Part shown: one piece after another, positions 335 to 53,504 of the stretch
How the letters are laid out: each line of letters opens with the position of its first letter
Numbering within the stretch: the stretch's first letter is position 1
Assembly: GCA_022478985.1 (NCBI GenBank)
Contig: JAKSZP010007907.1
Coordinates: 186,001 to 250,000 of the forward strand
DNA length: 64,000 nucleotides
Direction: 5' to 3'
Source of the DNA: Massospora cicadina
Lineage: Eukaryota; Entomophthoromycota; Entomophthoromycetes; Entomophthorales; Entomophthoraceae
Made by a program: the position numbers and the translations under genes
The notes under the pieces: generated by a model
Databases searched by the model: none
Told to the model about the DNA's origin: nothing
The model's input: only the letters and a program-made list of their open reading frames with translations

Positions 335-345
335 ATTTTAAATTT

Positions 346-371
346 ATTGCGGGGAAGGCCGACCATGGGAT
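346..371 (-). other. LINE-type shared 3' tail (L1)
   Basis: The minus strand reads CCATGGTCGGCCTTCCCC then GCAATAAATT. Near-identical tails end L2, L3, Z1 and Z2. In LINE biology the 3' end is what the reverse transcriptase recognises, so this is likely the template-recognition segment. Confidence 0.75.
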
Positions 372-439
372 GGACACTTCCAAATATGACTCAGGAAAGA
401 TAAACTTAGTACCAGGGGAGGCACCCCAGAGAAGCGATG

Positions 440-3400
440 CTATCTCTTGTTGCCAGCGGGAACGCCATTTATGGGGAGAGGGGAGGGAACGTGTGAAGGG
501 GCCGAAGCCACTATTGAGCACGTGTGGAGGAAGGGGTCTGATTTGATGAACCAGACTGGGAACCAGGAGGAGACCAGCTGTCAGCGACGCGGTGGGAGAT
601 ATCAAACATCCGCACTTGAAAGCGGTCCACCAAATGAGACCGGAATCTGTGGACAGCTTCTGGGAGGGTGGGGGTGGAGCCTGCGATGGCATCTAAGACG
701 ATCGTGTGGATGGTTCACATGGCGATTGCAACCACCAGAGCATGGAGGGAGGGTGGAAGGGGGAGGCCATTGATAGAGCAAACATATCTCTTGACAGACT
801 GAAGGGATGCTTTTGATCCTGGCCCAGCAGACGTTGAACTTCGCGCCATATCACTTTAGAGGTAGGGCACTTCTCCAGGCGGTGGAACAGCATTCCATAC
901 TGGCCACGCACGATTCAGGATGAGTGTAAAGCGTTAGAGCGCTCAGCTGTATGATACACCCGCCTCAGGAAGCGCCACACATGGGAGCGGACTTGAGGCT
1001 GTAACAGAGGATGGTGTGCGTATTTCCAGATAGACTTTTGGGTCTCAGTGGAATAAGGGATGTCCATCATGTCCAGGTAGTCCGCCCTGGATAGGACTTG
1101 GGGTCAAATGGGGATCACGCCATCATGGATGGGTAGCCCCTGTACCTCTTGTGTGAACTGAGGAGAGGGGCGGCCTCTTCAGGTTGTATGTCCACTAATA
1201 CAAATTCTCCATCCTGCGCTTTGCATGGAGAGTAGGATTCGTTTGTAGTGGGTTTTAGTCCCGTGAGGACCTGTGGCCGATGTGTGTGATGCAAGGTATT
1301 TCATCAGGGAGTGGGGGTTTGATGGATTGTTGAGGCCCAAGGCTGGGGAGAAGTTGGAGCGGGCTGCGCGGGACCAGTGTTGGGATGGGAGTGTAGGAGC
1401 GGTGACTGCCGCGATCCAGGTGCCCAGGATCTTGGCAGCATGGGCTTTGAAGTCAAGCAGGCCCATGTCACCTTGATGATGAGGGCCAAACATGACCTCT
1501 AGCCGTACTGGTGGAGGGCGGCCTGACCAAAGCCATCCTTGCAGCAAAGCATACAGGGATTTGAAGAAGCTTGGGGAGAAGGGGATGGTGTGGGCTCCAA
1601 ACCAGACTTTTGATAGGAGCATAGAGTTGGCAAGAACAACCCTGCCAGTGAGGGTAGTAGGGTGGGCTCTGAGAGAGGCGATTCTCTTCGTCACGTTGTC
1701 CAGTATATGGCACTCCATTACTGCTGACGCATATCCGCCTGCCTCGATCCACACGCCCAGATGGCGCACCGGTCCTATGTTAGGATGTGGCACGAAGGGG
1801 AGCACCAGTGGAGCGGTGTGTGTTGAGTTAGTGGGGCGAGGACGTGAGTGAGCAGATGGGCCGGGTTGGGAACTACTTGCTGGGGCCCAGCAGTTCTGAA
1901 ACTGACCAAGGAGGATGATTTCGGTTTTGGAGGCGTTCAGTGCCGCGTTTCTTACCCAGGAATATTCCTGGATGAGGGCTTCAAGTGCGCGTGCCTCTTT
2001 GTTATTAGACACCCCCACAACGCAATCATCTGCAAATGCCATCATCTTGACTGGGGTTTGGACTGGCACATGGACCCCAGTGAGGTGGGCATTCACATTT
2101 CGCAGTAGTGGGTCAAGGCTGAAGTTGTATAAGAGTGGGCTGAGGGGGTCCCCTTGTCGCAGGCCCCTTTGAGGGCGGACTACTTCCGTTAGGAAGCCTG
2201 GGCCACGCACTGCCATTGTCGCTGATTCCATGAGCATCATCACCCAGTCTATGAAGCGGGGGGTAGGCGGAATTGATGGAGGCAGGCCCTAAGGTATTCC
2301 CAGTTTACTCTATCATAGGCCTTTTGTTGGTCCAAGAATACAAGTGCCCCAGAGGCTGTGGACTGACATACATTAGCCACAGAGTGCACGTTATCCCAAA
2401 TTGACCTTCTGGGGATGAAACCGAATTGTTCTGGGGAGATGGTGGCAGATGCTACAGTCTTTAAACAGTTAGCCATGATTTTTGTTAAAATTTTGGTGTC
2501 TGTGTTTGTTAGAGAAATGGGGCGCCAGTTGGCTAAGTCAAGCTTATCCCCTTTCTTGAAGAGTGTGACAGTAAAGGCCTCATGTCCTCCTGGTAGGAGG
2601 CGCGTTTCCAACAGGCTTTGGTTGAGTGAGGCTAGCAGCAATGGGGATATATATGAAATATTTTTTGTAGAACTCATATGGAATGCCATCTGGGCCTGGG
2701 CATTTTTGGTTTGGCGCACCGCGAATGGCTGTCCATAATTCGTTTGGAGTAATTAAATTCACTATTTCTGGGTATCAGAAAATGGTGCGGATATGAGCTT
2801 GGTCAAGAAATTCCGCCATTTCAGCTGGCTGAATTGGTTCAGCTCAGTATAACTCGGAGTAATATTTTTGCATTTCAATTGCCACTTCGGCCAGTGTGTC
2901 CACAATGGAATTATTCAATCTTCGCACTGTGTACAGGCCATGCTCTGGCATGGTGCGAAATTTTTTAAAGAAGTATGCGGTGCACTTGTCACCTTTAGTG
3001 ATGCGTGTGGCCCTGTATTGGACACAAACCTGATATTTGTGTTGCCTTTTGATTGCGTTGAGGTGGGCGGCTGCCTCCTCCCACTTCCGGCCCCATGCAG
3101 GGCTGTATCCTGTGGCTGGAATGTTGGACTCCAAGTGGGCCAATTCCACCAGTGTGCACGAGATAACCGCCAATGTGGCTCATGAGCGTCTGAAGGAGAG
3201 ATGGCGATAGTGGCAGATGGTGTCCTCTTTGAAAGTTGCCCATGTGGAAATGGGGTCCGCGCAAAATGGTGCAACAAACTTTTTTGCCAAAGTTGCCTCT
3301 TCCACCCACGTGGAAAATCCTGGCAACGCAAGCTCGGGGGGCGGATTTTGCACCAATGTGGGGCCTTTGCAACTGTGATGGGTAAGTGGTATGTTATTGA

Positions 3401-4090
3401 GACCAGTCGGTGGTTGGAGAATTCCATTTTTGTTGTTTTGAAGTGGGAGATGTGGGGTTGGAATTTCGCTGGCATTAGAATAAGGTCAATGTGGGTCATG
3501 GACCTTAATTGGCTGTTGTGGACGTGGGGACGCATCATGTTTTTGAGCAGTGGGGCATGTCGTGGCAGCGCATCCATTAACCCAAGGGTGGCTTTTAGAA
3601 CGCGTAGTTCTACGTGACCCTGTGGGGCGAGGGTGAGGGCGGCCACCGGTCCGTTAGTGAAGTTTAGCCAACAGTTCATGTCACCAACTAGGAAAGAATT
3701 TGGGGGTAGCAGGAGGGACTTGACCAATGAGAAAAATTCCCGACGCTCGTGTACACCATTTGGGGCGTAGATGTTGACAATTGTATGTGCAACGTCAGCC
3801 CATGAGAAGGTGACGATGAGCACTCAGCCATTTAGGGATGTTTCTGAGGATGTGAATTTGAAAAAATTATTTTTCTGAATTAGCACCCCACAGTGCTTTG
3901 ACCAAAAGGATAGGGATGGGAGGAGCATTGTTTTCCAAGCTTCCTCGGAACCTTGTGGACAGTGGGACTCCTGGATGGCCAGGATATCCATGGGTAAATT
4001 GTGTTGTAAAAAACTCAGTTTCCTAGCATGGGATAGGGAGGCCTTGTGTCCAGTGATATTCAGCATCCCTAGAGTGAAGGTTTCCCCCAT
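440..4090 (-). pseudogene. L1 ORF2: APE endonuclease - reverse transcriptase - zinc finger (broken)
   Basis: The plausible start is the ATG at 4090 (MGETFTLGMLNITG), right after ORF1. The endonuclease motifs, in order, are IQESHCP (about 3955-3990), IVNIYAPNG, GDMNCW (3668-3685), HIDLIL (about 3480-3500) and FSNHR (about 3406-3427). The last corresponds to the family's SDH, so the catalytic Asp is Asn. RT motifs are KCPGPDGIPYEFY, ANWRPISLTNTDTK, the motif A region DQQKAYDRVNW (2299-2340), GLRQGDPLSPLLYN and FADD (2025-2036, both Asp kept). A C-terminal zf-RVT-like CCHC motif follows in the 690-910 region. The reading passes through several frames, with breaks near 3823, 2844, 2245 and 1180. 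The role would be to nick the target and copy the element RNA onto it. No RNase H domain is visible. Confidence 0.9.
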
Positions 4091-4174
4091 TGCACCTAAG
4101 GTGCAATGGGGTGGGCCCCAGGGCCCACCAGCCTCTTCAAGGTCCCCACGGGCTTTCACAGCAGCGCGGGTGTT

Positions 4175-5508
4175 AGCAGCAACGCTATCAGGGTTTTTGT
4201 TAATTTTTGTGGAAAGAGTTGCATTGGCTTTGGCCTTCGCTTTTTGTTTTCCTGACGTCGGACGAATTTTTTGTGGTGCGGATAAGTTCAGTGCACCATT
4301 GAGCGGGGCAAAAAAAATTTTCGGTTGGGATAGGTCCCAATTCGGTTTTGACTGGAGCTTGGGTGCAGCAATTGGGTGAGATTGAATCACCCATCGGATC
4401 CTTGGATTGAGTGGCCCGCTTGGCATGGGCCTCCCAATCTGATTGGGTGATAGATTCCCGAGTTGCTTCTGCTGTGAAGGTCTCCATGTCCTCCTGGCGT
4501 TGTGAGTGTGGGATGGTGGTGGTGGCCTTGGCCGCTTCCTTGGCCGCGGCCCTACGGGCCTGCTTGGCCTTCTTCCACTCCTGTGGGGGGATGGGATTTA
4601 CTAATAGGTAGCAGCCTTGTGCTCCCCACAGGAAAGCCTCCTTGGTGCTTGCGATTGGTTTGTAGTGCGCCTCTCCGCTGGCCATGGCCGCTGAGGGGTG
4701 CTCTTGGAATGTGACACCCTCCTTGATGGAGCATGCATGCGCCTTATGGCCAAATGTGTCACAGTGGGTGCAGATGGTGGGCGCGCTGTCCACGGTCACC
4801 TGGAATGGGTGGGTGGTATGCCCTGCATGTCAATAAAGGTGGAGTGCGGGATCTGGGTTAGGTCCTTCGTGATCTCCTCAGTTGGGGTCAGAACTGCGAT
4901 GGCTTTGCCAGTGCACAGGTGTGGCATCACCGTGAAACGTTGCATTTTGAAAGATTGTATTTCGCCATATATGGCGAGGCCATCTTTCAGTTGTTGCTCC
5001 AAAATGTCACATTTTACCGTAGTAGGCAAAAAGTCAAACGTGAGGAAAATTTGGTTTGATTTTGTCCATCTGGTGCATTTGGTTTTAATGACCCGTTGCC
5101 CTTCAGGAAGGTCGACCACTATGCGCACCGCTGCAGCCTCATCTGCTGCTATTTTACTTTTGAAACCTAGGTCCAGCCAACCACGCAACATGGAGTGAGG
5201 TGCAACGTACACCGCGGTCAGGAAAATTTTGTGTACATCTTCACAAAATTTTTCCCATAAGGCCTTTTTTTGGATGTCCAGATACACACGGACTCCAAAT
5301 TCCACTGACAAAAGTGGCTGGGAGTGTGGCGTGTTGATGTACTGGTTGCATCGTGCTTGCCACGCGAGTATCTCTGGGGAAATTGTGACTGCCAGTTTTT
5401 TGAGATTTGTGTCTATTCCACCGGATTCTCTGGGGCGTTTTGAACGTTAGAGGCCGCGGGCCTTCCGCCTGCTCCTCTTGCCTTGCTTGCCCAACTGCTC
5501 CCAGACAT
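4175..5508 (-). pseudogene. L1 ORF1: RNA-binding protein with CCHC zinc knuckle (broken)
   Basis: The start ATG at 5508 aligns with the L2 start (MSGSSWASK versus MLWSSWASK). A core at about 5311-4796 (MSVEFGVRVYLDIQKKALW to LTPTEEITKDLTQ) is preserved in L1, L2 and L3 and looks like an RRM-type fold. It is followed by the zinc knuckle CTHCDTFGHKAHAC (CX2CX4HX4C) and then an Ala/Lys-rich stretch (KKAKQARRAAAKEAAKA). The expected role is to bind element RNA as the nucleoprotein particle. A frameshift near 4796/4799 separates core and knuckle. Another, at about 4200-4430, obscures the junction with ORF2. Confidence 0.87.
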
Positions 5509-5602
5509 GGGCGCAGACTAATCTCCTCTGTGAGATTATCAAACTAGATTTAGTCTTGAATTGAATAGGTTGCAAAAGTGTTTGCAATGAGAGAGAAAAG
5601 TT

Positions 5603-16338: not shown

Positions 16339-16356
16339 CAAATTGGGGTTGTTATT
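16339..16356. repeat. 18-bp target-site duplication of Z1, copy 1
   Basis: CAAATTGGGGTTGTTATT sits next to the 3' end of minus-strand element Z1. Its partner at 18219-18236 is CAAATTAGGGTTATTATT (16 of 18 match, both differences G/A transitions). Confidence 0.85.
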
Positions 16357-16392
16357 TTAGTCAACCGAGGTAAGCTGACCAGGGGATGGCAT
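16357..16392 (-). other. Shared LINE-type 3' tail (Z1)
   Basis: The minus strand reads GCCATCCCCTGGTCAGCTT then ACCTCGGTTGACTAAAATAA. It aligns base for base over its core with the tails of L1, L2, L3 and Z2. Confidence 0.7.
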
Positions 16393-16510
16393 TTTTCAAA
16401 GTCAAATCCTAAAAATAAATTCTCACCAAAAAAATGAGCGAACCACCCAAAAAGAGTGGATGACACACATAACATGAACTCAACTAACCAGGTGGGACAG
16501 TGGGAACTGC

Positions 16511-18179
16511 TTATTCCATCATGGTGGAAGGGGAGGGTGGATTAGGGGGCTCATCCTCGGCCTCTACTTCATCCCAAATCAGGGCACAGGCCACGGTACT
16601 GAGTAGGGGTATCAGGGCATCAGTGGAATGCAGAGATATACTTCTGATAATTGGGGTGGTAGAAATACAGCCGTTATACATAAGAGTTCTAATATTTGAC
16701 CAAAGCTGTCCCAGCTTTCATGTGTGCGACGATTAGCCTAATGAACGTGGCAATATTGGTGTGAAGTAATTTTTAATTTGAAATTCTGTGCTACCACTGC
16801 CACATGCTGAATGGTGTCATTGGCGCCTTTGTGGGCTTCTATAACATATTTTTGAGCCTTGTTGGATTTGAAGGGAATACTTGGAGGAATAAAACCTCCT
16901 GCGAGCATCGCCACTGATTTGATGGGGCAGCTTTGTGGAGAGGATGCCAATCTGGCTTAGCCGTTGCTTAAACAGCCATCTGGTGGTTGCCGTAGAACGT
17001 TTCATCATTTTTCTGGGTAGCATATAAATGGGAGGGTAGCTCACCGTCTTGGTTGATAAACATAAACTGCTCAATTGGTATATTGCAATCTTCAATTATA
17101 TTCCCAGACTCATCAATTCCAGCCATTAAATCACAAAGATTCTGGTTGAATTGAATTGGGGAGTCGGCTTATTCCTGAGGCTTGGTTGGTTCATTGGAGG
17201 ATGCTTGGGATTGAACTGGTGTCCAATCCTGTGCTTGATTGGATGAAACGTTTGTGGCACTGGGGCGAGGAGGCTGATTGGTGGCCGTTGGCACAGCTGC
17301 AGAAACAGGCTTTTGGGGAGGGGGAGGTATGATTTGCCCCATACCAAAGTTGGTGCAAGGTGGGCGGTGGATTGGAAGCTGGCAGATGAAAAATCAGAGC
17401 TGTCATAAGTAGCTATGGATGGGCACTTGTGTTTCAAGTGGCCCAATCTGAAACAGGATGGACAGATCGTCCGTCCACCCTCAACGAGGGCCCAGGATGG
17501 TTGGTCAGGGGCAGAGGGGATAACAGCATGAGGTGGAATTGACAGGGCAATTTTATTTGATTCAGGGCTGATTGTGGCATATGCCCGAGGCCCAGTGAGG
17601 TGTGTGCCCCATTTGGTACCACTAATTGCAAGATGGGGTTAGAATTATAGGATGCCAAACCTTCCATCAGCTCCTGGTGGAGCACCTCAGGGAGAAGGTG
17701 GGTGGGCAAACCATAAAACTGAACCACCTAAGAGGTATCCTCTGGGAGCTGGGTCTGAATTGTGGGGAGAGGTATACCCTGGAAAACCAGGGGCACAGTT
17801 GCCGCAGTGGTAGCATTGGCTTACCAGGTGAGGCTGAGATCAAAATACCCCTTATAGGGGTGGAAGTCAATAAAACTGGCAGAACGCATCGCTGCCTGAG
17901 CCATTTTGATAACGGCTTGGTCATGGTAGGGGAAAATTTTCCCATAATCAACCCTAAGGCTGAGATGCATGTTGCTCTGGGGGAGCACAAGGGGGCAATG
18001 GAGCACCACTTGGGTTTGAGCAAAGTGGACATCGAGATCCTTTGGAGGAAAAATCGTCCCAGGGGTTTGGTATAACTGGGCGAGCCAGTTTCAGCGCATT
18101 TTCCTGTCAGATGTAAAATGGCAGGAGGAGTTTTGCTGCTGACCCATACTGGGGCAGCCAGCGGGGAATCCAAGGACAT
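16511..18179 (-). pseudogene. Z1 ORF: RRM-like and CCHC zinc-knuckle protein (broken)
   Basis: The start ATG at 18179 (MSLDSPLAAPVWVSSK) matches the Z2 start (MSSDFPPAATVWGSSK). Conserved blocks across frames are VDYGKIFPYHDQAVIKMAQ, FIDFHPYKGYFDLS (about 17850-17900), FYGLPTHLLPEVLHQELMEG (17665-17720) and the zinc knuckle CPSCFRLGHLKHKC (CX2CX4HX4C, about 17424-17465). A Pro/Asn-rich linker follows, then a C-terminal region (SIPFKSNKAQKYVIEAHKGA) and an acidic PPNPPSPS end. The order of blocks parallels LINE ORF1, but the sequence is distant. It is likely an RNA-binding nucleoprotein. Frameshifts lie near 18080, 17820 and 17440, with an in-frame TAA near 17820. The exact fold is my inference. 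Confidence 0.7.
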
Positions 18180-18218
18180 CAGAGCAGAACTACAGTGGGT
18201 GATTTAGATTTACTTTTT

Positions 18219-18236
18219 CAAATTAGGGTTATTATT
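18219..18236. repeat. 18-bp target-site duplication of Z1, copy 2
   Basis: CAAATTAGGGTTATTATT, partner of 16339-16356. Confidence 0.85.
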
Positions 18237-20021: not shown

Positions 20022-20113
20022 AACTTTTCTCTCTCGTTGCAATCACTTTTGCAACATCATTCAATTTAAGTCTGGAAAAAGTTTGACAACCTCACTAAGG
20101 AGATTAGTTGATG

Positions 20114-21450
20114 CCCATGCTGTGGAGCAGTTGGGCGAGTAAGGACAATGGCACAGGTGTTGGCCCTGCAGCATCCAAAGTTTTAAAATGCCCTGATGAA
20201 CCCGGAGGAATAGGTAAACTTAACAAAAAACCAGCGGTAACCATTTCACCAGAAATTTTAGCTTGGCAAGCGCAATGCAACCAGTACATCAATATGCTGC
20301 ACTCCCAACTACTCCTGTCAGTGGAACACAGAGTTCGGGTATTCCTGGATATTCATAAGATGGCGCTTTGGGAAAAGTTTTGTGGGGATGTACAAACTTA
20401 TTTCTCAAACGCGGTGTAAATCACACCTCATTCTATGCCACATGGTTGGGTGGATCTAGGCTTTGAGAGCAAGGAAGCGCCGGATGAAGCTTCAATGGTG
20501 CGCGTTATAGTAGACCTCCCAGATGGTCAGCAGGTCATCAAAACTAAGCGCACCTGATGGACAAAATAAAATTAGTTTTTTCTTCACTTTCAACTTTCTG
20601 CCCATTATGGTCAAATGCACCATACTAGAACAACACCTGAAGGCTGGGCTCGCCATATACAGCGAAATTCAATCCTTTGAAATGCAGCGCTTTACGCTAA
20701 TGCCAGACCTGTGCACCAGCGAAGTTATTGCAGTCCTAACCCCAGCTGAGAGGATAGCGAAGGATCTAACCCAAATCCCACATACCGCTTTTGTCAATGT
20801 TGAGGGGCATGTCACCCACCCTTTCAGGGTCACCATGGACAGTGCACCTCTCATCTGCGCCTTCTGTAGCGCTTTTGGCCACAAGGCCCACACCTGCCCC
20901 ACCAAGGAGGGCATTATATATCAAGAGTTTCCCTCAGATTTAAACGGCAAGGTGAAGCCCACTATGAACTGACCGCTGATACAAAGGCAGCCTTACCGTG
21001 GGGAGCGCAGGGAAGCTACTTACTAGTGAAGCCAATATCCCCTCAAGAGCGGAAGAAGGCCAAACAGGCCTGCAAGGCAGCAGCCAAGGAGGCGGCCAAG
21101 GCCGATTCTGCTATCCTGCCCTCCCAGCTGCAGGAGGACATCGAGACTTTCATGGAAGAAGCAGCTTGTGAGTCCCTCAACCAATCAGATTAGGATGCCC
21201 AAGCCAATTGGGACCCCCAAGCTGATCACTCGCTGGGTGAGTTGGTTTCACCTGACCAATGTGCCCAAGCATCAATTGGAGCTGAATCAATCTCCAACTT
21301 TACTGCCAACATTCAACTTCCAAGAGTTGGTGCACTGCAAATTCACGCACCATAAAAATCTTATCCTGCAGCGGGGAAAAAAGTGAAGGCAAAGGCCAAC
21401 GTGAACCCAACTGCTAAGGGTACCCATACCATCGATTATGTAGCATCTCA
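20114..21450 (+). pseudogene. L2 ORF1: RNA-binding protein with CCHC zinc knuckle (broken)
   Basis: The start is the ATG at 20114, chosen by alignment to L1; an in-frame ATG also stands at 20108. The N-terminal region has ISPEILAWQAQCNQYIN and VFLDIHKMALWEKF. A TAA at 20417-20419 replaces the Tyr codon of L1 (AVYVAPHSM). The second half reads FNFLPIMVKCTILEQHLKAG, MQRFTLMPDLCTSE, then the knuckle CAFCSAFGHKAHTC (about 20857-20898) and the Ala/Lys-rich tract. A frameshift follows at about 20970. The role is as for L1 ORF1. Confidence 0.87.
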
Positions 21451-21531
21451 TACCTGAGGCGCCAACAAGCGCCATGAAGAACAGGAGAAGGCTGAAGGGC
21501 TCAGTGCTCTTCCCCTCACACCTAAGGTGAA

Positions 21532-24500
21532 ATGGGGGGGCCTTTACTTTAGGTACATTGAACATTGCTGGACTCAAGGCCTCACTGTCCTGGGCTAGGA
21601 AACTGAGTTTTTTACAACAAAATTTAACCGTGGATATCCTGGCCATTCAGGAGACCCACTGTCCGCGCAGTTCTGAGGAAACATGAAAAACCATTCTCCT
21701 CCCTTCCCTCTCCCTCTGGTCTGAGCACTGTGGGGTGCTAGTTCTAAAGAACAATAATTTTAAATTTTTATCATCTGAATCCTTCCTTTGTGGCCGTGTC
21801 CTCATAGTCACTTTTTTGTGGGGCAGCAAAGTGCACGCTATTGTCAAAATTCATGCCATGACCTATTCATGAGAACGTTGGAATTTTTCATGTCAATCAA
21901 TTCCATTCCGTTGCCCCCTGATCTTTTTGTTGTTGATGACATGAACTGCTGAATGAACCCATCCACTGATTGCTGGCCTTTATCTCCTTCACCACCACAG
22001 GGACACATAGAACTCCACGTTCTCAAGGCCACCCTAGGGTTGATCAATACTTTGCCGCGTCATGCTCCGCTTCTTGAAAACATGTCATGTCCCCACGTCC
22101 ACAATGGCCAGTTAAGGTCCATGTCCCGCATTGACCTTACCCTCATGCCGTTGAAATTTTGTACTCAAATTTCCCATTTCACCACAATGAAGATTGATTT
22201 CTCTGATCAAAGGATGGTTTCAATATCCTTCCAATTATCCAACCCAGCAGCTCGGGATCCAAGTTGGTGCAAACTTTGCCAGGCTGAACTTGCGCTGCCA
22301 AGATTTTCTTCATGGATGAAATCTGTGACCGCAGCTCCAGAGTTTATCGCACTGTTTTGTGCTAATCCAATATCCTCTTGGTCTGCCTTCAAGTTAAACA
22401 CAATGCGCCAGGCTCGCCATCTTTCCTCCCACTTCTCACGATCTTCCTCGGCGGTCATTTTGCGCGCCCTGGCAGAGTTGGCCCACCTGGAGTCCAACGT
22501 CCCAGCCATGGGCTACAGTCCAGCTTGGGGTCGCAAGTGGGTGGAAGTAGTCACCCACCTTAACGCTCTTGAGAGACAACACAATCATCAGGTTTGTGTT
22601 CAGTACAGAGCTAAACACATTACAGTGGGTGACACGTTTTCTGCTTACTTTTTTTCAAAAAAAATTTGCACCGCGCCAGAGCTTGGCCTGCACACAGGTG
22701 TGAAGGACAGAAAATTCCGTAGTGGATACGTCAGCTGAAGTGGCAATCAAGATACAAAACTATTACTTCGAATTGTATCAATCTGAACCAATTCCACCAG
22801 CTGAAATGGCAAATTTTTCAATAGTGCACACATCCACACCGTTTCCTATTTCCCAGAGTTGATGAATTTGATTATTCGGGACAAACTCTGGTCCGCCATC
22901 TGCAGTGTACCATATAGGAAATGCCCAGGCCCTGATGGCATTCCATATGAGTTCTACAAAAATATTTCAAATATATATCCCCATTGCTGCTAGCCTCACT
23001 CAACCAAAGCCTGTTGGAAACGCGCCTCCTACCAGGAGGACATGAGGCCTTTACTGTCACACTCTTCAAAAAGGGGATAAGCTTGACTTAGCCAACTGAC
23101 GCCCCATTTCTCTCACCAACACTGATACAAAGAATTTTACTAAAATTATGGCTAACCGTCTAGGGATTGTTGCCTCTGCTCTCATCTCCTCAGAACAATT
23201 TGGTTTCATACCCAGAAGGTTTATTTGGGACAAAATACACACCGTGGCCAACGCCTGTCAGTCCACGGCCTCTGGTGCACTTGTATTTTTGGACCAACAG
23301 AAGGCTTATGATAGAGTTAACTGGGATTACCTCAGGGCCTGCCTCCACCAATTCCGCCTACCCCCTCGCTTCATCAATTGGGTGATGCTGCTGACGGAAT
23401 CCACCACAATGGCTGTGCGTGGCCCTGGCTTTCTCACGGATGTAGTCTGTCCTCAAAGGGGCCTACGCCAAGGGGATTTCATTATCCCACTCTTATATAA
23501 TTTCAACCTTGACCCACTTCTTTGTAACGTGAATGCCCACCTTACTGGGGTCCATGTGCAAGGCCAAGCCCCAGTCAAAATGTTGGCATTTGCTGATGAC
23601 TGTGTGGTTGGGTTGTCTAATAATCATGATGCACGCGCGCTTGAAGCTCTTATCCAGGTTTACTCCGGGGTAAGTAATGCTGCACTAAACGCCTCCAAAG
23701 CTGAAATCATTCTCCTTGGTCGGCGTCAAGCCCGCTGGGCCCCAGCGCCTTGTTTCTGATCCGCCCCATCAGCTAGCGCACGCGCTGGCTACCCTGCCCA
23801 CCCCACACTGCCCCGCTTGTGCTCCTCTTTGTGCCAAGCCCCACCGTTGGCCCAGTCCGCCATTTGGGGGTGTGGTTGGAGGCTGGCTGGTATGCCTCAA
23901 CAGTGATGGAAAACCATATTCTGGACAACGTGATGAAACGCATAGCCTCCCTCAGAGTCCGTCATACTTCCCTTACTGGCAGGGTTGTACTAGCCATCTC
24001 TATGCTCCTCTCCAAAGTTTGGTTTGGGGCCCACGCCATCACTTTCTCCCCAAGTTTATTCAAATCACTGTATGCCCTTCTGCAAGGGTGGCTTTGGTTG
24101 GGCCGCCCACCGCCAGTTCGACTGGAGGTCATGTTTAGCCCTCCCCATAGTGGAGGTATGGGCCTGCTCAACTTTGAGTCCAATGCTGCAAAGATCCTTG
24201 GCACCTGGATCGCTTCTGTTACCAACCCTACAGATTCAGCCCAACACTGGTCCCGCATGGCCCGCTCCAACTTCTCCTTCACTCTGGGCCTCACCAACCC
24301 ATCCCACCCACACTCTCTGTTGAAATATCTGGCTTCCCATCCTTTGGCAGCAGTCCCACATAGGACAACACCCCACTTCAAATGGATCCTCCTCTCCATG
24401 CAGCTCGCTGAGTGGAGGATTCATATTTGTGGGCACACAGCCCAGAGGGGGCTCCCCTCTCCTTGGTTTACCCAGGAGATACAGGGACTACCCATTATGA

Positions 24501-25074
24501 ACGGGATGATACCCACGAGGCCCCATGCCTTGTCCAGGGTGGACTACCTGGACATGATGGACATCCCCTATCCCCTTGATACCCAGAAAGCCATTTGGAA
24601 GTACGCCCACCATCCTCTTCTGCAGCCTCATATCCGTTCCCATGAGTGGCTCTGCTTGAGATGGGTGTACCATACTGCCAAACGCTCTAACGCTTTGCAC
24701 TTATCATGTGTCATGTGTGGCCAGTACGGAACGCTGTTTCACCACCTGGAAAATTGCCCTCCATCTAAAGTGATATGGAGTGAGGTGCAACGTCTGCTTC
24801 GCCAGGATCAAGCACAGCCCTTCAGTTTGTCTAGAGATATGTTTACTTTATCAATGGCCTCCCCTCTCCACCCTTCCTTCATGCCTTGGTGGTCACAATC
24901 GCCATGTGGACTATCCACCCGATTGTCTTGGATGCTATCTCAGGCTCCACCCCCACCCTCCAAGAAGCTGTCCGCCAGTTCCAGTCACACTTAGTGGACC
25001 ACTCTCAAGTATGGATGTTTGGATACCTCCCTCCACGTCGCCGCCAGTTGGTCTCGTCCTGGTTCCCAGTTTAA
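21532..25074 (+). pseudogene. L2 ORF2: APE endonuclease - reverse transcriptase - zinc finger (broken)
   Basis: Starts at the ATG aligned with L1 (21532) and ends with SSWFPV and TAA at 25072-25074. The endonuclease shows ILAIQETHCP (about 21637-21665), DDMNC (family GDxNxW, first residue changed), RIDLTLM (about 22130) and DFSDQRMVS (about 22195; the His of SDH is Gln). The RT in 22860-23760 has RKCPGPDGIPYEFY, EQFGFIPRR, FLDQQKAYDRVNW, GLRQGDFIIPLLYNF (family GDPLSPLLY, altered) and LAFADDCVVG with both catalytic Asp. The C-terminal frame 23819-24994 carries CVMCGQYGTLFHHLENC (about 24709-24759), a zf-RVT-type motif. Stops or frameshifts lie near 21683, 22740, 23098 (TGA for Trp of ANWRP) and 23760. 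Confidence 0.9.
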
Positions 25075-25248
25075 ATTAATTCTGACCCCTTCCTCCACTT
25101 GTGCTCAATAGTGGTGCCTGCCCCTATAAATGTGACCCCACTCCCAGTAGTGGCGTTCACTCTGTCAATAGGAGACAGCAATAGCTTCTCTGGGGTGCCC
25201 TCCTATTACATGTTTTTCGTTTTCTTTGGTGTCTTATTAGAAGTGTTT

Positions 25249-25277
25249 GTCCCCTGGTCGGCCTTCCCCAAAATAAT
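25249..25277 (+). other. Shared LINE-type 3' tail (L2)
   Basis: GTCCCCTGGTCGGCCTTCCC followed by CAAAATAA, ending exactly at the 3' TSD. This copy gives the cleanest definition of the tail. Confidence 0.8.
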
Positions 25278-36058: not shown

Positions 36059-37445
36059 ATGGGAGATTCCAACAAATCCAAACTAAACTGGGCTAAAGCC
36101 TTATCTGGCAATGGCTAAAACGGTGCACCAAAGGGTAAAAAACGCCTTGGATGGGGTCTGGTAGCTAATGCCGCCAAAAACCCACAAACCCAAACACCAC
36201 CCAGGTTTGTGGAGTTTACCACAAAAAAGCCAATACAGGAAAATTTAGTATGCACAGCCCCTATTGAAAGTGGAACATGTGCTCCAACTTTACTTAGGGT
36301 TCGAGTCCCCAACTCTGTGGGAGAAGGTGGGAGGGGCACAGGCCTCCCTTTTTATCCCAAACAGTGTATGTTACCACCAATACCATCCACCATGCTTGGA
36401 TCAACATGGGTTTTGAAACTAAAGAAGATGCAAACGCTGCAGCAAAAGCCATTGTTGAGATTGCCCTCTTCAAGGGCAAACTAATTGTGGGCACCTCACA
36501 CACCAGATGGAACAAAGCAAACATTTTGTTCATCTCTTTTGACTCACTCACTATCAACCTTCCATACAAATTAATTGATGAGGAGCTCCAAATTGGCCTT
36601 CAAAGCTATGGAGAAATAAAACAACTAGAACTACAGCGATTCCACCTTATGCTGAACCTGTGCACTGGAAAGGCATTTGCCATGATCAACCCAGTCCCCA
36701 ATGTGGCCACAGACCTAACAAAAAACCATGCACCGTGGTGCTTCACCTAGACAGGGGAGTGTTAAAGCCATTCCACCTCACACCAGAATGCGCACTGCCC
36801 ATCTGCAACCATTTCACCACATTGGGGCACAAAGAACACGCATGCCTATGAAGGAGGGCACCTTGGCCCCAGACTTCTGTGATGATGACATGACGAAGAT
36901 GAAGAGACCTTCAGAAAAATGGTTGATGCTAACCACGCTTTCCTCTGGGGAGAGGAAGGGCACTACATCTTCATTGACCCAGTATCACCCAAACTACGCA
37001 AACAGGTATAGAAGGCCTGCAAGTAAGCAGCAGCCAAGGCCACATCACTCGCAGCCTCCTCCCTCAACCTGGGCTTAAATCCAGGAGGACATAGAGAAAA
37101 TCAGCCAAGCCAGCCAATCAGAACAATATGCCCAAGCTGAAGAAGCCATGGAGGAAATTAACAGAGCCAAACAACCTAGCAGAAAGCCCAAGCTGAAATT
37201 TTCTCAACAATCTGACTAAATCACCACGTGATCTCAATCAAATGATTTTAGCAGAACAATGCATCTTAATTATAGGCGAAACAGCAGGACCCAATTCTTT
37301 AAAATTGAGCCCTGAAACCACAGAATCCAGTCAGTGCACCACTCCGAATCATAAAAAGCCACAAGTGGAAAAACCCATTATGAACTCTAAAAACTGCAAG
37401 AACCGCATGAAATCAACACAAGGTAAGAAACTGGACAGTGACTAA
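36059..37445 (+). pseudogene. L3 ORF1: RNA-binding protein with degenerate zinc knuckle (broken)
   Basis: The ATG at 36059 (MGDSNKSKLNWAKALSG) precedes an early TAA at 36116-36118. The core is 36364-36750: HHAWINMGFETKEDANAAAK, then TRWNKANILFISFDSL, LQSYGEIKQLELQRFHLM and NLCTGKAFAM. These align with the L1/L2 core (WLDLGFKSKIAADEA, CTRWTKSNQIFLTFDFL, AIYGEIQSFKMQRF). The knuckle reads CNHFTTLGHKEHAC near 36806-36850, with Phe in place of the second Cys. Several frame changes follow, through an Ala/Lys-rich tract. Confidence 0.83.
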
Positions 37446-37530
37446 GAGTGGACTGGTCTAATCACATTGAGCAAGTTCAAGGCAATGAACGTTGGGCTGG
37501 GGCCAGAAGGCCAACAACTTCTCTTGAGGT

Positions 37531-40500
37531 GCTGCGGGCGCCTCAGTGTCAATAGGGACGATAAACATCGCAGGACCAAGGCTCAAGTGTCCCAAGCCAA
37601 AAATCTGGACTTCCTGTGAAAACTCCTGTAGACATTTTGGCTACACAAGAAACCCACTGTCTACAGGGGGAAGATGGATCCTGGTCATCCACAGTCTCAC
37701 CATCTCAGTTGGTATGGATGTCCCAAAGTGGGGTGGTCATCCAAAATAACAAAAAATTAAAAATTGCTAACTCCTCTTCATATCTGAATAGCATCCTGGC
37801 CACAACAATCATAAACCAAGTGGCCATACTTTCAATAGCTTGTATCTATGCACCATGCACCGCAGCATAGAGGAAACAATTCCTTGAAGCCATTCTAACG
37901 CTCAACCTCCCACCAGAAACCATCCTGCTGGGCGACTTTAATTGCTGGGACAACCTCAACATGGACTGATGGCCAAACCCCAAAGGGATACCCACTGGGA
38001 CACATCAAGTTCCATGCGATGAAGGCATCTCTTGGCCTGTATGACACCCTCCCCCTGGGTCTCCACTCCTCCCCCACATGACCTTTCCAGCATATGCGAG
38101 GGAACGCTCATCTCAATGAGCTGCATTGACCACATCCTCACAACAAAACCCGCCGCTCGTCCATCTCTAACTTTGCAACAAAAAAGATTAATTTCTCTGA
38201 CCACATACTCATTTTGGTGCAGCTCACCAATATGAACTCACATGCGGACATCTTACTGGAGGAAGAAATACCCAGAGAACATTAAATTACCCAAAAATTC
38301 TGACTGGGTTGAGCACAAAGCCATGAACCCAAAATTCAACCCCATTTGTATCAGATCCCATTGAAACTTGGGCTAAAACAAAACTGAACTAATAAACAAA
38401 ACTCGCCATCTTGCCTCACGTAAGTACACCACTGACACAGCCACAATCAAGCGCACCTTGGCGGAACCGGACCACCTCAAACACAACACCCCAAAGTCTG
38501 GCTACAGCCTCAACTGGGGGCGCAAATGGGTGGAAATCTCCGCCCACCTAACGCCCTCATCTACGAATACTAGCACAGAATCAAAGCATCTTATAATAGG
38601 TAATTACATAAAAGAAGGCAATACCTGTTTAGCTTATTTCTTCCACCAATACCACTCCTGAGGCAACCTGCCTACATGCTCACAGGTCTGTAAGGCCAAC
38701 GTCACCATGGCAATTGACCCAGCGGAGGTCAAGGCGGAAATACAACACTATTACACCAAATTTATTGTAACACCCCATCCGACCAACAAAAAATTAAAAT
38801 CATACACACCACCAGAATACAGAGTGCGCCGCTGGAATATAACCTCCTGAACCTGATAAAGCAGGAGGAGCTCTGGGACACAGTCCGCGGTGCACCATGT
38901 AGGAAATGCCCAGGCCCTGATGGGATACCCTACAGATTTTACAAAAAATATTTTAGACAAATCGCCCACCTCCTCTTAGCATCAATGAACCAGTGCCTGC
39001 TGGAGACACGCCTCCTGCCTGGAGGCCAGGACTCCTATGTCGTAGCCCTGTTTAAAAAGGTCGAATAACTGGACCTGGCCAACTGGCGCCCTTTTACACT
39101 CTCAAACACTGACACAAAACTAATTACAAAAGTTTAGCAACCAGATTAGGCACAATAGCCTCCAAAGCCCAGTCACTAAATCAGTTTGGGTTCACACCAG
39201 GGCTAAATCTGGTCCAATATACACTCCGTCGCCAAATATGCTAGTCCAAATCATCTGGAGCCCTGGTGTTACTAGACCAGGAGAAGGCATACAACTGGGT
39301 TAGCTGGCCATACCTGAAGAAATGATTAAGCGCCTTCAAACTCCCACCCAGGTTCATAAACTGGGCGATGCTCCTCACAGAGTCCGCATCTATGGCTGTG
39401 TGTGGCCCTGGCTTTCTAACCAACAAGATCGCACCACGCAGATGGCTCAAACAAAGGGAATTCCTCAGCCCAATACTGTACAACTTCAGCTTTGATCCAC
39501 TCCTCCGCATTACCAATCATGCCTCATGGGCATAATTGCACAAAGCTAGCCCCCAGTCAAGATACTAGCTTTTGAAGATGACTGTGTGACAGGTATTGCT
39601 AACAATAATGATGCCCGACAGCTGGAACGCACCCTAGAGGAGTACTCAATTGTGAGTAACGCATCGCTCAACAAATGGAAAACAGAAAAATCCTCCTAGG
39701 CAAATACATCAACAACTGGGCCACAACACCCAAACCCCACAGCTCCCACGATGGTAAATCCCATTCATCCTACCCTTTTCGATCACCCCCCACAACCAAC
39801 CCTGTCTGCCACCTTGGGATATGGCTGGAAAAAGGGGGGTATGCTAATGAGACAATTGAGAAAAATCTACTACAGCAGATATCCAACTACATCGCCTCAC
39901 ACAAGTGAAGATCCCAGGACTAATGGGGCGAGTAGCAGTTTCCAACTCACTTATCCTCCTGATGCTTAGGTTCCCTGCACATTCAAACCCTTTTCTTCCA
40001 CTTTCATATCCTCAATCCGCACGCTTATCCAGGGCTGGCTGTGGCCTGGATCCCGACCACCTGTACAAGTGGAAACGCTATTTGGACCACACTCCAGCGT
40101 AGGCATGAGCTTAATAGACTTTGAGGGTCATGCCAAACGTATACTGGGCACCTGGATAGAGGAAGTGCTAGACTTGTACCTTCCACAACAACACTGGTCT
40201 AGAGCAGCAAGGGCAAAATTCGCACAGGCGCTCAAAATACCTAACTCACACAACCCATCCAGCCTACTCACGTACCTTGCTAATTTCCCCAATGCAGTGG
40301 GCCCACATGGAACTCCCCCTCACTTTAAACGCCTCCTTTGCACCATCCGGTACATGGAATGGACCATCGCTATCACTGGTACAGAGTAGGGAAGGGGACG
40401 ACCCAGAGCCCACTTCATGCTAAGAAAACTAGAGGACCACCCCCTGAGAGACATACTCACTATGACCCATCCATCGCTATAATCGACTACATAGACACTT

Positions 40501-41057
40501 TGGACATCACTTATGACCTAGATACACTGAAGGCAATATGGAGGCTAACGCACCATCAACTCCTCCAGCCAAGTGCAAGAGCAAACACCTGACGTTGCCT
40601 CAGAAGAACATATAGAATGGCGGATTGCACCAACTTTCTCCATACAACCTGCGCAGTATTTGGAGGGGAGGGCTCCCTACACCACCGCCTAGAAGCATGC
40701 CTCCAATACAGATCCATATGGCGGGAAGTTGCGCGCCTGCTAAGGATCAAAAATAACCAGGAATTATCCATCTCCAGGAGCCTCCTCTTGCTCCAGCTCA
40801 AATCCCCAATACCACCTAACCAAAGCTCCCTTATGGTATCCATCATGATGTGGACAATCCAAACCATAGCTTTGGATGCTTTCAAGGGAGCCATACCAAT
40901 CATCCGTGAAATAATCAGCAGATTCCACCTGCACCTTCTGGAACATTTCCAAGCCTGGCTATTTGGATACATGAAGCTGAGGCAACAAAGGCTCGTAGAG
41001 TCATGGTTTCAAGTCTGGTTCCTAAACATGGACCCTTCCTCCATATCTGATCCATAA
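37531..41057 (+). pseudogene. L3 ORF2: APE endonuclease - reverse transcriptase - zinc finger (broken)
   Basis: Endonuclease motifs: SIGTINIAG (37546), DILATQETHC (about 37627-37660), CIYAPC, TILLGDFNCW (about 37920-37950), CIDHILTT (about 38123-38150) and FSDH (about 38198-38210 across a frameshift). RT motifs: RKCPGPDGIPYRFYKKYF (about 38898-38955), ANWRPFTLSNTDTK, NQFGFTPG, LDQEKAYNWVSW (second Asp of motif A is Asn), REFLSPILYNFSFDPLL and LAFEDDCVTG (about 39565-39595, DD kept). The C-terminal part 40617-41057 has CAVFGGEGSLHHRLEAC (second Cys is Phe) and ends SWFQVWFLNMDPSSISDP. Stops and frame changes are frequent, as expected for an older copy. Confidence 0.87.
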
Positions 41058-41216
41058 CAAGGGAAACCCCCTTGGGGTAGCGCACCAACCCCCTCCCCCA
41101 TACCTGGTGGTACCGGCTGGAAACAGGGGTAACCCATATACCCTGGGGTGCTCAATACTTTCTAATCCTTGCTATGTTTCACTTCCCCCCACTTCTCCCT
41201 ACACACACATCGGTAC

Positions 41217-41252
41217 TGCCCTTCTCTGGTTGTCTTGCCTCAGTTAAATAAA
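41217..41252 (+). other. Shared LINE-type 3' tail (L3)
   Basis: GCCCTTCTCTGGTTGTCTTG then CCTCAGTTAAATAAA. A diverged form of the tail in L1, L2, Z1 and Z2. Confidence 0.6.
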
Positions 41253-42179: not shown

Positions 42180-42556
42180 TTAAGTCAAAATGGCTAACTG
42201 TGCAAATTTGTGTCCCAAAAATGGGTGTCCTATGTATTACCTTCAGAGCGAATTGATGTCATACTGGAGGGACATTGGCAAGTCAGCTCTGGAGGAGTTC
42301 AGAAAACTTACCAATGGCTCAAGACTCAATTTTACTGAGAAGGAATGATTTTATAATCCAAGATGTACTGGAGTCCTGCCTGCTATTCTAAAGTCAAGCT
42401 GGACCTAATCCCAGTCACAATACCAGTGGTTTTCACCCTGTGAACCCTTCCATACCATTTACATTGATGTTGTGGGACCTCTCCCTCAAGCCTCTAATAA
42501 TCAATGGTTCCTCCTCCTGGCCGTGGATCATTTAACTAAGTGGATTGAAGTTATAT
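42180..42556 (+). pseudogene. G6 integrase, proximal part
   Basis: The HHCC region is partial (VILEGHWQVSSGGVQKTYQW near 42250-42310, then C..C in shifted frames). The core begins HTIYIDVVGPLPQASNNQWF (about 42455-42515) with AVDHLTKWIEVIS (both visible at 42522-42560). The first catalytic Asp is present. It is cut at 42556/42557 by insert X. Confidence 0.78.
42541..42556. repeat. 16-bp target-site duplication of X, copy 1
   Basis: TGGATTGAAGTTATAT, perfectly repeated at 43150-43165. It encodes part of the integrase KWIEVI motif, which confirms the site was continuous. Confidence 0.95.
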
Positions 42557-43149
42557 CTTTTTTAGTACTAGTGGTGCCCAACCCAAAAGGGGGAGCCGCC
42601 ATGCATCTTTATTTGCAAATGGGCCAAACAAAGGGATTATCATAAATCAAAAAATCATAATATGGCACCTTAGCTAACAGCCTAGGAAACAATATCAGAT
42701 AGCGAGGAGGCTTTGTGGAAACTTCTGTCTGGCGCCCGCTTTAGGTGGCGGACCATGGCGGACAGCATTGGGGTGGGAGCATCAGCAACATGGGGCATAA
42801 GGGGGTTATAGTTGAAGGTTTTCTTCATTAATGAGGCCGTCAATGTCCATCGCCTCAATGTAATGAGCAAGTTGATGATCAGCAAAACTGATGAGAGCTG
42901 GCACACAAGTAAATGACTTTATGCGCCGGTGGGTTTTGGGATAATTGGGGTCAAAAAGAGAAGTTTTTGCTGCATTGATGCAAGTGCATCTCGCATTAAA
43001 AGCAAGCTCCTCAATTTTGTACTTCGCATTTTCCTCAAAATCATGAGGAAAATTGGGGATAGGAATAACCTCAACAAGGGGCTCCATTGCCCCATGGAGT
43101 TGCTGGCGGAGGAGGGTGTTGGCTGGGGCAGCTGCAGCCGCAACTTCCA
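42557..43149 (-). mobile_element. X: 593-bp retroposed insert of unknown family
   Basis: Inserted in the G6 integrase with a perfect 16-bp TSD. On the minus strand it has an open 5' part, a 3' UTR of about 125 bases and an end ACTAGTACTAAAAAAG. The structure is that of a 5'-truncated LINE, a SINE-like element or a processed copy of a cellular mRNA. It differs from L1-L3 and Z in sequence and tail. No other copy of its body is in the window, but its tail recurs at 57358-57373. Confidence 0.85.
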
Positions 43150-43150
43150 T
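42682..43150 (-). pseudogene. ORF in X: C-terminal part of an unrecognised protein
   Basis: The frame 43150-42806 reads MEVAAAAAPANTLLRQQ, then PNFPHDFEENAKYKIEELAF, INAAKTSLFDPNYPKTHRRI and FADHQLAHYIEAMDID. After a frameshift near 42815 it continues NYNPLMPHVADAPTPML to a stop at 42682. The apparent start codon overlaps the TSD, so the true N-terminus lay beyond the 5' truncation. I recognise no domain. It could be an ORF1/gag C-terminus or a host protein. Confidence 0.5.
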
Positions 43151-43165
43151 GGATTGAAGTTATAT
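43150..43165. repeat. 16-bp target-site duplication of X, copy 2
   Basis: Exact copy of 42541-42556; the G6 integrase continues after it. Confidence 0.95.
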
Positions 43166-46545: not shown

Positions 46546-47469
46546 AAAGCCACAAGGGGCTCTTAGTGCAGGCAACTATTGCGGGATGAAAGCCTGGGGT
46601 TCAGCCCCTCACCACACTAAGGCTGCACAAACCTAAGCACCATCAATAGTGGCCCAATCACAATTGAGTGTAGCTCACAATAACCCTAAAATGACATATA
46701 CTCACCATGTTTAAGTACTAGACAGCTTGTATGCACCTTCCAGGACAGGCGATATGCCTCTCATCCCCCTTGCATGGAACAAGACCCAATGACCCCCAGG
46801 TTTAAAACCCATGAGGGAGAGAAGCTGAAGCCCTCCCCTTTGTCAACTGCTTTTTAGCGGAGCTGTTCACTCCAACCCTTTTTTGTACAGGAAGCCTTGG
46901 AGTCCTTTTAAATCAAATGCAATTTTCTTGCATAATCACTTTTGCCACCAGCCAGCTCATGCCGACTGTACTAGCTAGCCAAGCCTTAGGCCAACTTGAC
47001 AAACTGTGGTACCTATTGTAAGCAAGTGCACTGAAGCGCAGCCAACCAGTATTACCCTCTTATTTACCTGGGATCTGCACCCATGCAACACCAGCTCATG
47101 TGGAGGCCGTTTAACAGGTTCCATGCCTGACTTTTACCCCCTTCCTGTCCATATTCTACCCTCAGGGAGTGGTAGACACCGGTGAGAACATATCAGCACA
47201 GTCATCACTACCATCCCTTACTAATTCCAGGCCATTAAAGGACCTGACCAACGTTCCTCTCTGGGTTCTAGTGCTAGCTACTCGCTCATGTTTTCATGGG
47301 CTTTCCCCAGTTGTGCCACGAGGAGGCCCCAGCTTACCCTAACTAGCTCACCAGGGATTCTCATCATACTCCTTCATAAGGATTTCATAGGGTTTTAAAT
47401 CCTTAATAATTTGTCATTCATCTCTCTTTCCGCTTGTGTAACTTTCAAAGCAAATTACATAATTTATTA
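46546..47469. other. GC-richer non-coding block; weak SINE candidate
   Basis: Base composition changes abruptly from the AT-rich DNA to the left. Near its start a box-A-like TTAGTGCAGGCAAC (46563) and a box-B-like GGGGTTCAGCCCC (46596-46608) are spaced as in a tRNA-type internal promoter. No second copy, TSD or poly-A tail was found. The remaining 850 bp has no coding frame or recognisable motif. Confidence 0.3.
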
Positions 47470-47933
47470 AAAGCAAATACTAATCGCCCATAGTAGTTTC
47501 GCTCCAATGTCCTCAGATTTTCCACCAGCTGCTACAGTGTGGGGCAGCAGCAAACCCCCCGCCATTTTTTCTAGCAGAAAAACGTGCTCAGACTGGTTCA
47601 CCCAGTCATTCCAAACCCATTGAACGATTGATTCCTCCCAAGGATCTTGACGCCCATCTTGCTCATACCTAAGCGTTACCTCGCTGCCTCCTGGTGCTCC
47701 CCCAGAGCAGTATGCGCTAAGGCCTAAGGGTTGAATATGGGAAACTATTCCCATACCACAACCAAGCAATTATTGAAATGCCACAGGTGGTGATGACACC
47801 TGCCGGATTTATAGATATCCACCCCTATAAGCGGTACTTTGACCTCAGCTTCACCTGTGAAGCTGACGCTGCCACTGCAACAACTGTGCTCCTGGTATTC
47901 CAGGAAGCCCCTCTTCCCACAACTTGGACCTGG
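47470..47933 (+). mobile_element. Z2: ORF1-only retroposon, 5' part (interrupted)
   Basis: Second copy of the Z family, opposite strand to Z1. The start ATG at 47507 reads MSSDFPPAATVWGSSKPPAI; in shifted frames IPPKDLDAHLA, EYGKLFPYHNQAIIEM and FIDIHPYKRYFDLSFTCEAD follow. It ends at CAACTTGGACCTGG, where the chromovirus G7 begins. Joined with 55238 it restores the order seen in Z1 (CAATTCAGACCCAGCTCCCA). The exact 5' end and TSD are unresolved. Confidence 0.78.
47929..47933. repeat. Probable 5-bp target-site duplication of G7, left
   Basis: CCTGG against CCCAG at 55238-55242. The uninterrupted site in Z1 is CCCAG, so two transitions have accumulated in the left copy. Confidence 0.45.
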
Positions 47934-49362
47934 TGTAAGTCCCATGGAATGTCCCGTGTATGTAGATCAGGCCTTCTTCCCATTTCTGAGTAAGAAGGTT
48001 CCAAAGAGGGTGGCTGTACCCCTCGTTACCCAGGGCAAACTTGCCCACATGGTAGATGAGTGCTGGGTAACAGCCCTCCCTCTTTGGATCCCTCCCCCAG
48101 TGCCACACTCACCTTGGCAAAAGTAGTACATCTGATCAGGGAAATTTTCACTGAGATCGCTGAAATGAATTTGATTGGTACAGAAACAAGTGGAAAAAAG
48201 CCCGATGATCAGAATCCACATAGTTGTAAAAGGATGAAGATTGGTTCATTGGATGGAATTGCTGATGATTATGATTTTGCCAACATTGCAATTGTCAAAA
48301 TTAACCCCCTCTCAAAATTGTCAGGGATGATCCCCAACATGCAGATAGTAGCATCGGACATCATCAACAAAAGTTTGAAGCTCCCTTCTGGTAAATTGGG
48401 TATTGTGGCCAATGCAACGCTTTTGACTGAACGAACAGCCTAGCGACCAGGCACAGGCAGGTTGGGCATCCCAACCCATTCCCAATCAACTGGGACCGCC
48501 CCTACGTGGGGGCCCTGGGGGATTCCCATTGCTCATTAGGCCAGATGCCATCATGCCAACTATCAGAAACACAGTTGAGCCTCAGTTCGGGCATTCAAGG
48601 TCAAACTAACAGCAACTCAGCCCGCCGCCAAATTCTTTGATGTCAGTTCCCAGTAAGCTTATCTGACCCCATTCCCAAATAACTCACTGGTTAGATTGAA
48701 TTGAGGGTCTCAATCCTAGCTTGTTCTCACATCAATTGAACACTATTTAATCAGTTGCATCGCACTGAGAAAATTGTTGGTTGGTTTTTTTCACTTTCCT
48801 TTACAATAAAATTTGCCTCCAAAATTAATCAATTTTGATTTTATTGATATCCTTCTGGCCGCATTCCTGATGGCTTTTCTCTTGTGGCCTGTCATTCCTT
48901 ATACTGGATGGGCTTAACCAGTACTGATGGTCACTATGGCCCCTACCATTGTCAACTGGATTCAGTGAGCTAGATACTTCTGGCAATTCAACCCTGTTAT
49001 TACAAACATTCGCCAACAATATACTGGGATCTTGTGACCTTACATCCACCATCTCCAAGCAAGGATCTGCCCCCTTGTCCCCCCAGTTGAATTAAACCCA
49101 CCCGTCAGTGACCTGGTAGAAGCTATACCTGTGGTACCACCCCCTGCAGCAAGACCACCAGTGTCTGGGGCTGTCTCTATTTGGTTCATTTTTGGGTTGC
49201 TGTTCACTATTGCCCTGCACCAACGGTTTATTGTCTCCCTAAGCCTGGCTCCATATGACGTTGTACATGCGGCAATGCCTCTAGCATTCTGGATTGCTTC
49301 TTGGGTGCTTATGCATCCTAACTGGCAGGCAGGTCTAAACTTCTTCTGCCGTTTTCATGACA
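47934..49362 (+). repeat. G7 5' LTR (1429 bp)
   Basis: TGTAAGTCCC...TTTTCATGACA. Nearly identical to 53810-55237 (1428 bp) apart from scattered substitutions and one-base indels. Unusually long for the Gypsy elements here (others are 0.34-0.57 kb). It contains AATAAAATTTGCC (48806-48818), a possible polyadenylation region, and the palindromic GGGATGATCCCC (48324-48335). Small open frames inside it are not considered genes. Confidence 0.93.
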
Positions 49363-50130
49363 TAATTGACCAACCTTTGTTTCCAGCCACTTCCGCCCTG
49401 CTCTTCGAGGTGGGTGTCACAGTGGTTACCCTCTACTAAATAAATGTGCAATCAGTATTGTGCTTTTTGTTGCTCATTTGGTCACTTGCCGATTTTGTGG
49501 GTAGTATCCTCTCTACCTTGGAGAAACTTCTTCAGGCTGGCAGAGAACCGTGGATTACTACTTCTCCCCCTCCTAATAGCCCAGATAAAAGTTTGTGTTA
49601 CTTCCCAAGAGATTGTAAATAAGGTTCTCGACGCCCTCACTGAGGTGCAAATGCAGTTGCTATTGCCCTTAACAACGCCGCTGCATTATCTCATGCCCAA
49701 CTGGGGGTCGCTTTATTGGACGCTGTAAAAGGTGATTCCCGTCAGTGGGTTCAAAGTCTTCTGCGATCTTCCTCACAAGTGGTGGATCCCACTTCGCTGA
49801 TTGCCATCATATCAGCTTCCTTGAAACCCCCAGTGTCGCGCTAAGACCACTTATTCAGATTGCTCTCTTCTATGGCTGAAGCCCCTAGAATGACTTCTTT
49901 GATCTCTACCTTCCACAAACAGGCTCCCACACTGGACCTCTTTAATGATATGCTTCATGCAATCTTTAGATCAGGTTTGGATTTGGTTTCTACTCACCAC
50001 GAGGTTTGGTCCACCTCAAGAGGAACGGTAGATCAATTATGTACCGCTACAACTACTATCAATGCCCCCCTCATCATACTTCCCGCCATCAGGGGGGAAA
50101 TTTATGATAGGAGTACCCAACGATGATGTG
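49363..50130 (+). pseudogene. G7 gag-like region (broken)
   Basis: Open stretches read ALNNAAALSHAQLGVALLDA (near 49665-49725), DSRQWVQSLLRSSSQVVDPT and MTSLISTFHKQAPTLDLFND (near 49890-49950). The position right after the LTR and before protease indicates gag. No CCHC knuckle is visible. Assignment rests on position only. Confidence 0.45.
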
Positions 50131-50194
50131 AATGTAGTTTTACCATTGAACCAGTGATAGTTTTGGCTTCCAAGCCCTAACCACTCCTGCATAG

Positions 50195-50890
50195 GAGTTG
50201 GTTGATCCTGGTTCACCTATAAATGAATCAGTAAAAGCCCAGATGGAGGAAGCTGGTTCTCAAGCCCTCATACTTCCCAACTTTACTCCAGAAAAAGCCC
50301 CCAACCTTCCCCCTGATTTGCCTGACATTCCTTTAGTTGCAACAGAAACGCCTGAATCAACCTATAAACAAAACTTCACTTACTTCTTATTACCTATGAA
50401 GATTAGTATTGGATCTCACCATGTCTCCTTTGAGGCCCTGGTGGATACTGAAGCCACAGGTAATTTCATGAGCGTCGAGTTAGTCCACCAATTAGAACTG
50501 GACATGGACATGGGTCCATTGGTGATGGCAGCTATTTCAGCCTCCCAGATATCGTATATTGTCCGCTGGCCAGTACCTTTTTTGATACACCAGTTTAGCT
50601 TCTGCAATTGGTTTTCCACTATGTCAAACTTGGTGTTTCCAGTGATCTTAAGGGTTGGATGGTGGCGCCAACAACATGTAAAGATCCACCTGGAGTCTAA
50701 CATGTTGTCATTTATTAATGATCAACTGGAGGGCGAATTCCCCTTAGTCGACACACTTAAGAAAAAACAAGGTCGCAGTTCTAATACTTCTCTCGTCTCG
50801 CCTGCTGGCCTTTCATCCAATTTCCCCAAAAGTTTAATGCACTATCAAAGTGTCTTCAATTCCAAAAAGGCAGATCATCTTCCTCCTTAA
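50195..50890 (+). pseudogene. G7 retropepsin-like protease
   Basis: The open frame 50198-50890 (230 codons) contains ISIGSHHVSFEALVDTEATG (about 50402-50462), then FMSVELVHQLEL. The family's VDTGATGNF is clear, but the catalytic Gly is Glu (DTEAT). The frame continues toward the RT linker with a final SLMHYQSVFN (about 50830-50862), like the 'yxdVF' start of Gypsy RT regions. Confidence 0.8.
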
Positions 50891-51690
50891 AACTAAATTC
50901 GACCTGGGATTTTGTACAGCTGTGCAGTTGGTGATATCAACTGTCCGTTGTATCACCATACAGCAGAGGAGGAGGTTGTGCTTAACACTTGGTTGGATGA
51001 TATGCTAAAAATGGTGGTTGTTTAAGGAGACATTGCCAGTCAAGTCTCCCATCATCTTCACTAAAATAGCCGACAGTTCCCTCCATCCTTTTGTGAATTA
51101 CAGACATTTAAACAAAGTAACGGTTCACAGTCCCTACCCCCTGCCTCTGGAGCAGACGATCAGCCAGGTAATCACCAAATCTCATGTGTTCTCTAAGCTG
51201 GATCTTGTCAATGGCTTAAACCAGATTCGGGTAATGGAAGGGCAAGAATGGTTAACAGCGATCTGGACAAAGCAAGGCATTTTCCAACTCTGCATAATGC
51301 CCTTTGGGCTGAAGAATCCCCGCTACGTTTTAATGAATGATTGACAGTGTACTGGGTGACCTCCATTTACTTGCTTGGTCACATATATTGATGACATTCT
51401 GGCTCATTCCCTAACTCCCGAACAACACACTATTGACTTAGAAGCAGTCGTGGCTGCTTTGCACAAGGCAGGCTTGTTCATTAAGCCTTCCAAATGCGAG
51501 TTTTATAAGGAGGAAGTTACCTTTCTTAGGAACCTCATCCTAAAAGATGGTTATGCAATTCCTCTTAATAAGTTGGATGCTATCCAAGAATGGCCAACCC
51601 TGACAACCCAGAAACAATTATGGAGTTTCTTGGGAACCACAATTTTCTTGAAAATTTCCCCAGCTCTTTCCTAGTTAGCTTCCCCACTCC
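50890..51690 (+). pseudogene. G7 reverse transcriptase (YIDD intact, frame broken)
   Basis: 51018-51344 reads VNYRHLNKVTVHSPYPLPLE, HVFSKLDLVNGLNQIRV and FQLCIMPFGLKNPRYV. After a TGA the next frame gives CLVTYIDDILAHS with the catalytic YIDD at 51382-51393. It then gives LFIKPSKCEFYKEEVTFLRN and LDAIQEWPTLTTQKQLWSFL. Of the Gypsy RTs in the window this one is the best preserved. Confidence 0.9.
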
Positions 51691-53480: not shown

Positions 53481-53504
53481 GGTCCCCACGGATCCTGAGC
53501 TGAT

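Follow-up and report, generated by a model that had tools for sequence, protein, structure and literature searches.

Support for an ORF1-only LINE derivative of the HAL1 kind in the fungus Massospora cicadina

A stretch of 64,000 nucleotides from contig JAKSZP010007907.1 of Massospora cicadina (positions 186,001 to 250,000; here, the window) contains Z1 (16357..18218, minus strand), an insertion belonging to a repeat family that we call Z. The evidence supports Z as a nonautonomous derivative of a long interspersed nuclear element (LINE) that has kept open reading frame 1 (ORF1) only, of the same kind as HAL1. This interpretation, which a preliminary description of the window had put forward, draws support from the size of the copies, their target site duplications (TSDs), the absence of ORF2, and the ratios of nonsynonymous to synonymous substitution (dN/dS). 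An ORF1-type protein is all that Z encodes, and for its copying it apparently depends on the enzymes of a larger element. The DNA sampled amounts to 358 kb, a small part of a large genome, and results for the family as a whole apply to this sample.

Amplification of the ORF1-only form

Z1 is a real insertion, as had been claimed; its flanks lie at 18219..18236 and 16339..16356 (minus strand), and the former is identical to the 3' copy at 16 of 18 positions. The many copies of about 1.86 kb that were expected are present: 11 span 1,809 to 1,955 bp as bounded, with many in the range of 1.8 to 2.0 kb, and TSDs were found on 11 of 14. They are scattered, TSD-flanked, over 274 kb of one contig. Zg, Zh, and Zi are 91.9 to 94.6% identical to Zf across 1.9 kb, with a separate TSD for each. 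Overall, the ORF1-only form was amplified as such, with LINE-like ends, into TSD-flanked sites. Of the 25 relatives found, 24 come from M. cicadina; the viral contigs searched gave none.

The LINE-type insertion marks of Z consist of the TSDs and a LINE-like 3' tail. Tail alignments bear out the earlier statement that Z ends in this tail; the match near the 3' end of Z1 (16360..16408, minus strand; E 2.1e-10) is itself a training sequence. The companion statement that the 5' end of Z differs from that of LINEs is wrong for full-length copies, which share the LINE 5' end and have LINE-type ends on both sides. RNAalifold found no consensus structure for seven 5' ends aligned with MAFFT, although single-sequence folds place a hairpin at the same position in most of them.

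The prediction that Z lacks endonuclease and reverse transcriptase (RT) holds for the copies searched: LINE ORF2 probes had no match in 17 Z copies at E<=1e-4, none in 12 Z element sequences at E<=0.1, and none in Zi. No longer Z copy joined to endonuclease or RT was seen within the 358 kb, in which 14 Z copies stand against six LINEs carrying their own ORF1 together with RT. Three LINEs in the window have ORF1, a putative endonuclease region, and RT: LINE A (345..5602, minus strand; TSD 17/17), which is of the candidate enzyme-donor type; LINE B (20022..25272, plus strand; TSD 22/23); and the more divergent LINE C (36228..41249, plus strand; tail at 41207-41249, plus strand). The RT was recognized by Pfam (RVT_1) in A and B and by similarity to these two in C. 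A short RT fragment at C1:197475-198135 had no detected ORF1.

Protein, origin, and enzyme donor

The ORF of Z is homologous to LINE ORF1 over about 100 residues, and its ORF1-type protein has 587 amino acids in the version designated P0004. Within Z1, which also includes a span at 16511..18179 (minus strand), the CCHC zinc knuckle CPSCFRLGHLKHKC (17423..17464, minus strand) is identified from sequence and weak Pfam matches; Pfam returned no domain in Z other than such subthreshold knuckles, and a sequence search of P0004 against the PDB gave no match. Pairwise dN/dS values of Z copies are below 1, as anticipated, on codons projected by tblastn, which favors conserved stretches. Comparison of the copies indicates that the Z protein was under constraint during its history.

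In the mechanism that we propose, Z RNA would be translated into the Z ORF1-type protein and bound by it and would then be copied in trans by LINE enzymes that engage the tail common to both. These enzymes may come from a LINE family outside the sample.

A competing explanation is that Z represents repeated, independent internal deletions of full LINEs having a Z-type ORF1, in which case the copies would be dead derivatives and not a self-maintaining lineage. The LINE ends of Z fit such an origin, as do the several independent origins of HAL1s in mammals (PMC5753468, in the portion cited) and the LINE at C1:265657-270237, whose ORF1 is intermediate in similarity; furthermore, the parent LINE may lie beyond the small part of the genome sampled. 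We regard this explanation as improbable; Zf, Zg, Zh, and Zi share the 1.9-kb form, each with a TSD of its own. A one-step deletion that left the C terminus of ORF2 as the C-terminal region of Z was rejected (hhalign against the end of LINE C ORF2, probability 0.1), and a 25% match of that region to LINE B (E 0.10) was not accepted.

Several observations weigh against Z as an ORF1-only lineage sustained by LINE enzymes. Homology to ORF1 upholds the claim of an ORF1-like protein; the preliminary description needs correction on the intactness of the ORF, since no genomic copy seen in the 358 kb has an intact full one, and present activity is not established for this reason. The knuckle of the preliminary description stands, whereas its RRM-like part gains no support from structure: two models were too poor for use (mean pLDDT, 36 and 53), and the better one retrieved nothing from Foldseek at E<=0.001. 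In addition to the projection bias noted above, dN/dS for the young pair Zg-Zh was 0.83 or 0.53 depending on the projection. Z tails resemble the tail of a short interspersed nuclear element (SINE) of the same genome more than those of LINEs A and B, and therefore the true LINE partner may be unsampled. The stretch that we take to be the LINE endonuclease was assigned only by where it lies and by known motifs, and it was not recognized in LINEs A and B by Pfam or by PDB sequence search.

Two loci also bear on this question. Zf lies directly 5' of a full LINE, although its own 20-bp TSD separates them. Reading the two as a Z element with ORF2 was rejected, since the intervening TSD is perfect and the LINE carries a separate 5' end and a separate ORF1. 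The abutment is exact, with the 3' TSD of Zf ending at the first bases of the LINE (C1:212925-220084; L024, L025), for which no convincing TSD was found. At the second locus, a divergent LINE (C1:265657-270237, plus strand; L030; ORF1 knuckle CSWCNALGHLYNSC) has an ORF1 that scores about equally with Z probes (41.6 bits) and with LINE probes (36.2 bits). It was likewise rejected as a Z element with ORF2, since a tree places its ORF1 outside the Z clade on a very long branch; it is a possible clue to the branching point of Z.

SINEs and other repeats

The 3' tail is common to LINEs, Z, and the SINE. This SINE (278 to 292 bp) occurs at C1:38223-38514 (minus strand; L006) and in four further copies on C1, ending at 7657, 152649, 186593, and 220626; four of the five have TSDs. 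Its head appears tRNA-like by a B-box-like motif, and ARAGORN did not call the heads as tRNAs. The L006 copy is inserted just downstream of a LINE-type ORF1 fragment (C1:38594-39073, minus strand) near which no ORF2 was found; the fragment may represent another ORF1-only derivative of independent origin.

Further segments of the window were delimited at 42557..43149 (minus strand; 16-nt flanks, 43150..43165 and 42541..42556) and at 47421..47935 and 55237..56651 (plus strand). The stretch between the latter two (47936..55237, plus strand) has retroelement-like ORFs, of Ty3 type by eye only, and 16-nt flanks enclose 47421..56651 at 47405..47420 and 56652..56667 (plus strand). A diverged 2.2-kb repeat pair (63%) lies at 9570-11789 and 60273-62506; the latter overlaps 58555-62484, which also matches C1:114079-117994. 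A 0.57-kb pair about 5 kb apart (6317-6882 and 11772-12339; 79% identity) could be the terminal repeats of an old element. Rfam had no match in the window.

Comparison with known systems

The repeats of M. cicadina are described as including 6.3% L1 LINEs and an "Unknown" class in the part of PMC10515909 that covers them, and the terms ORF1 and non-LTR are absent from its main text. Our literature searches, at the level of search results and mostly outside the subscription literature, revealed no recognized fungal ORF1-only element. The ORF1-only arrangement is known from mammals and flies, with no description for fungi found in these searches.

The resemblance to SINEs is limited to the tail: tRNA-derived SINEs share the LINE 3' tail with Z but have a polymerase III head and no protein coding, whereas Z has a conserved ORF1-type ORF. 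Among fungi, the Avrk1 and Avra10 effectors of Blumeria arose from part of a LINE ORF1, and the EKA family to which they belong resembles Z in being fungal, multicopy, and of LINE ORF1 origin (PMC4641428, in the sections concerned). The EKA effector candidates are cut before the knuckle, whereas Z retains the knuckle, the C terminus, and both LINE-type ends and occurs as many decayed, TSD-flanked copies. HeT-A encodes a Gag-like protein only, beside TART and TAHRE with RT, and is like Z in being a Gag-only non-LTR element with relatives that encode Gag and RT; as presented in PMC3776773, it transposes to chromosome ends only, whereas Z copies lie TSD-flanked inside a contig. HAL1 derives from mammalian L1, so Z, with its relatives in M. 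cicadina, is not HAL1 proper; like Z, HAL1 is a nonautonomous LINE derivative encoding ORF1p alone (PMC5753468, same portion).
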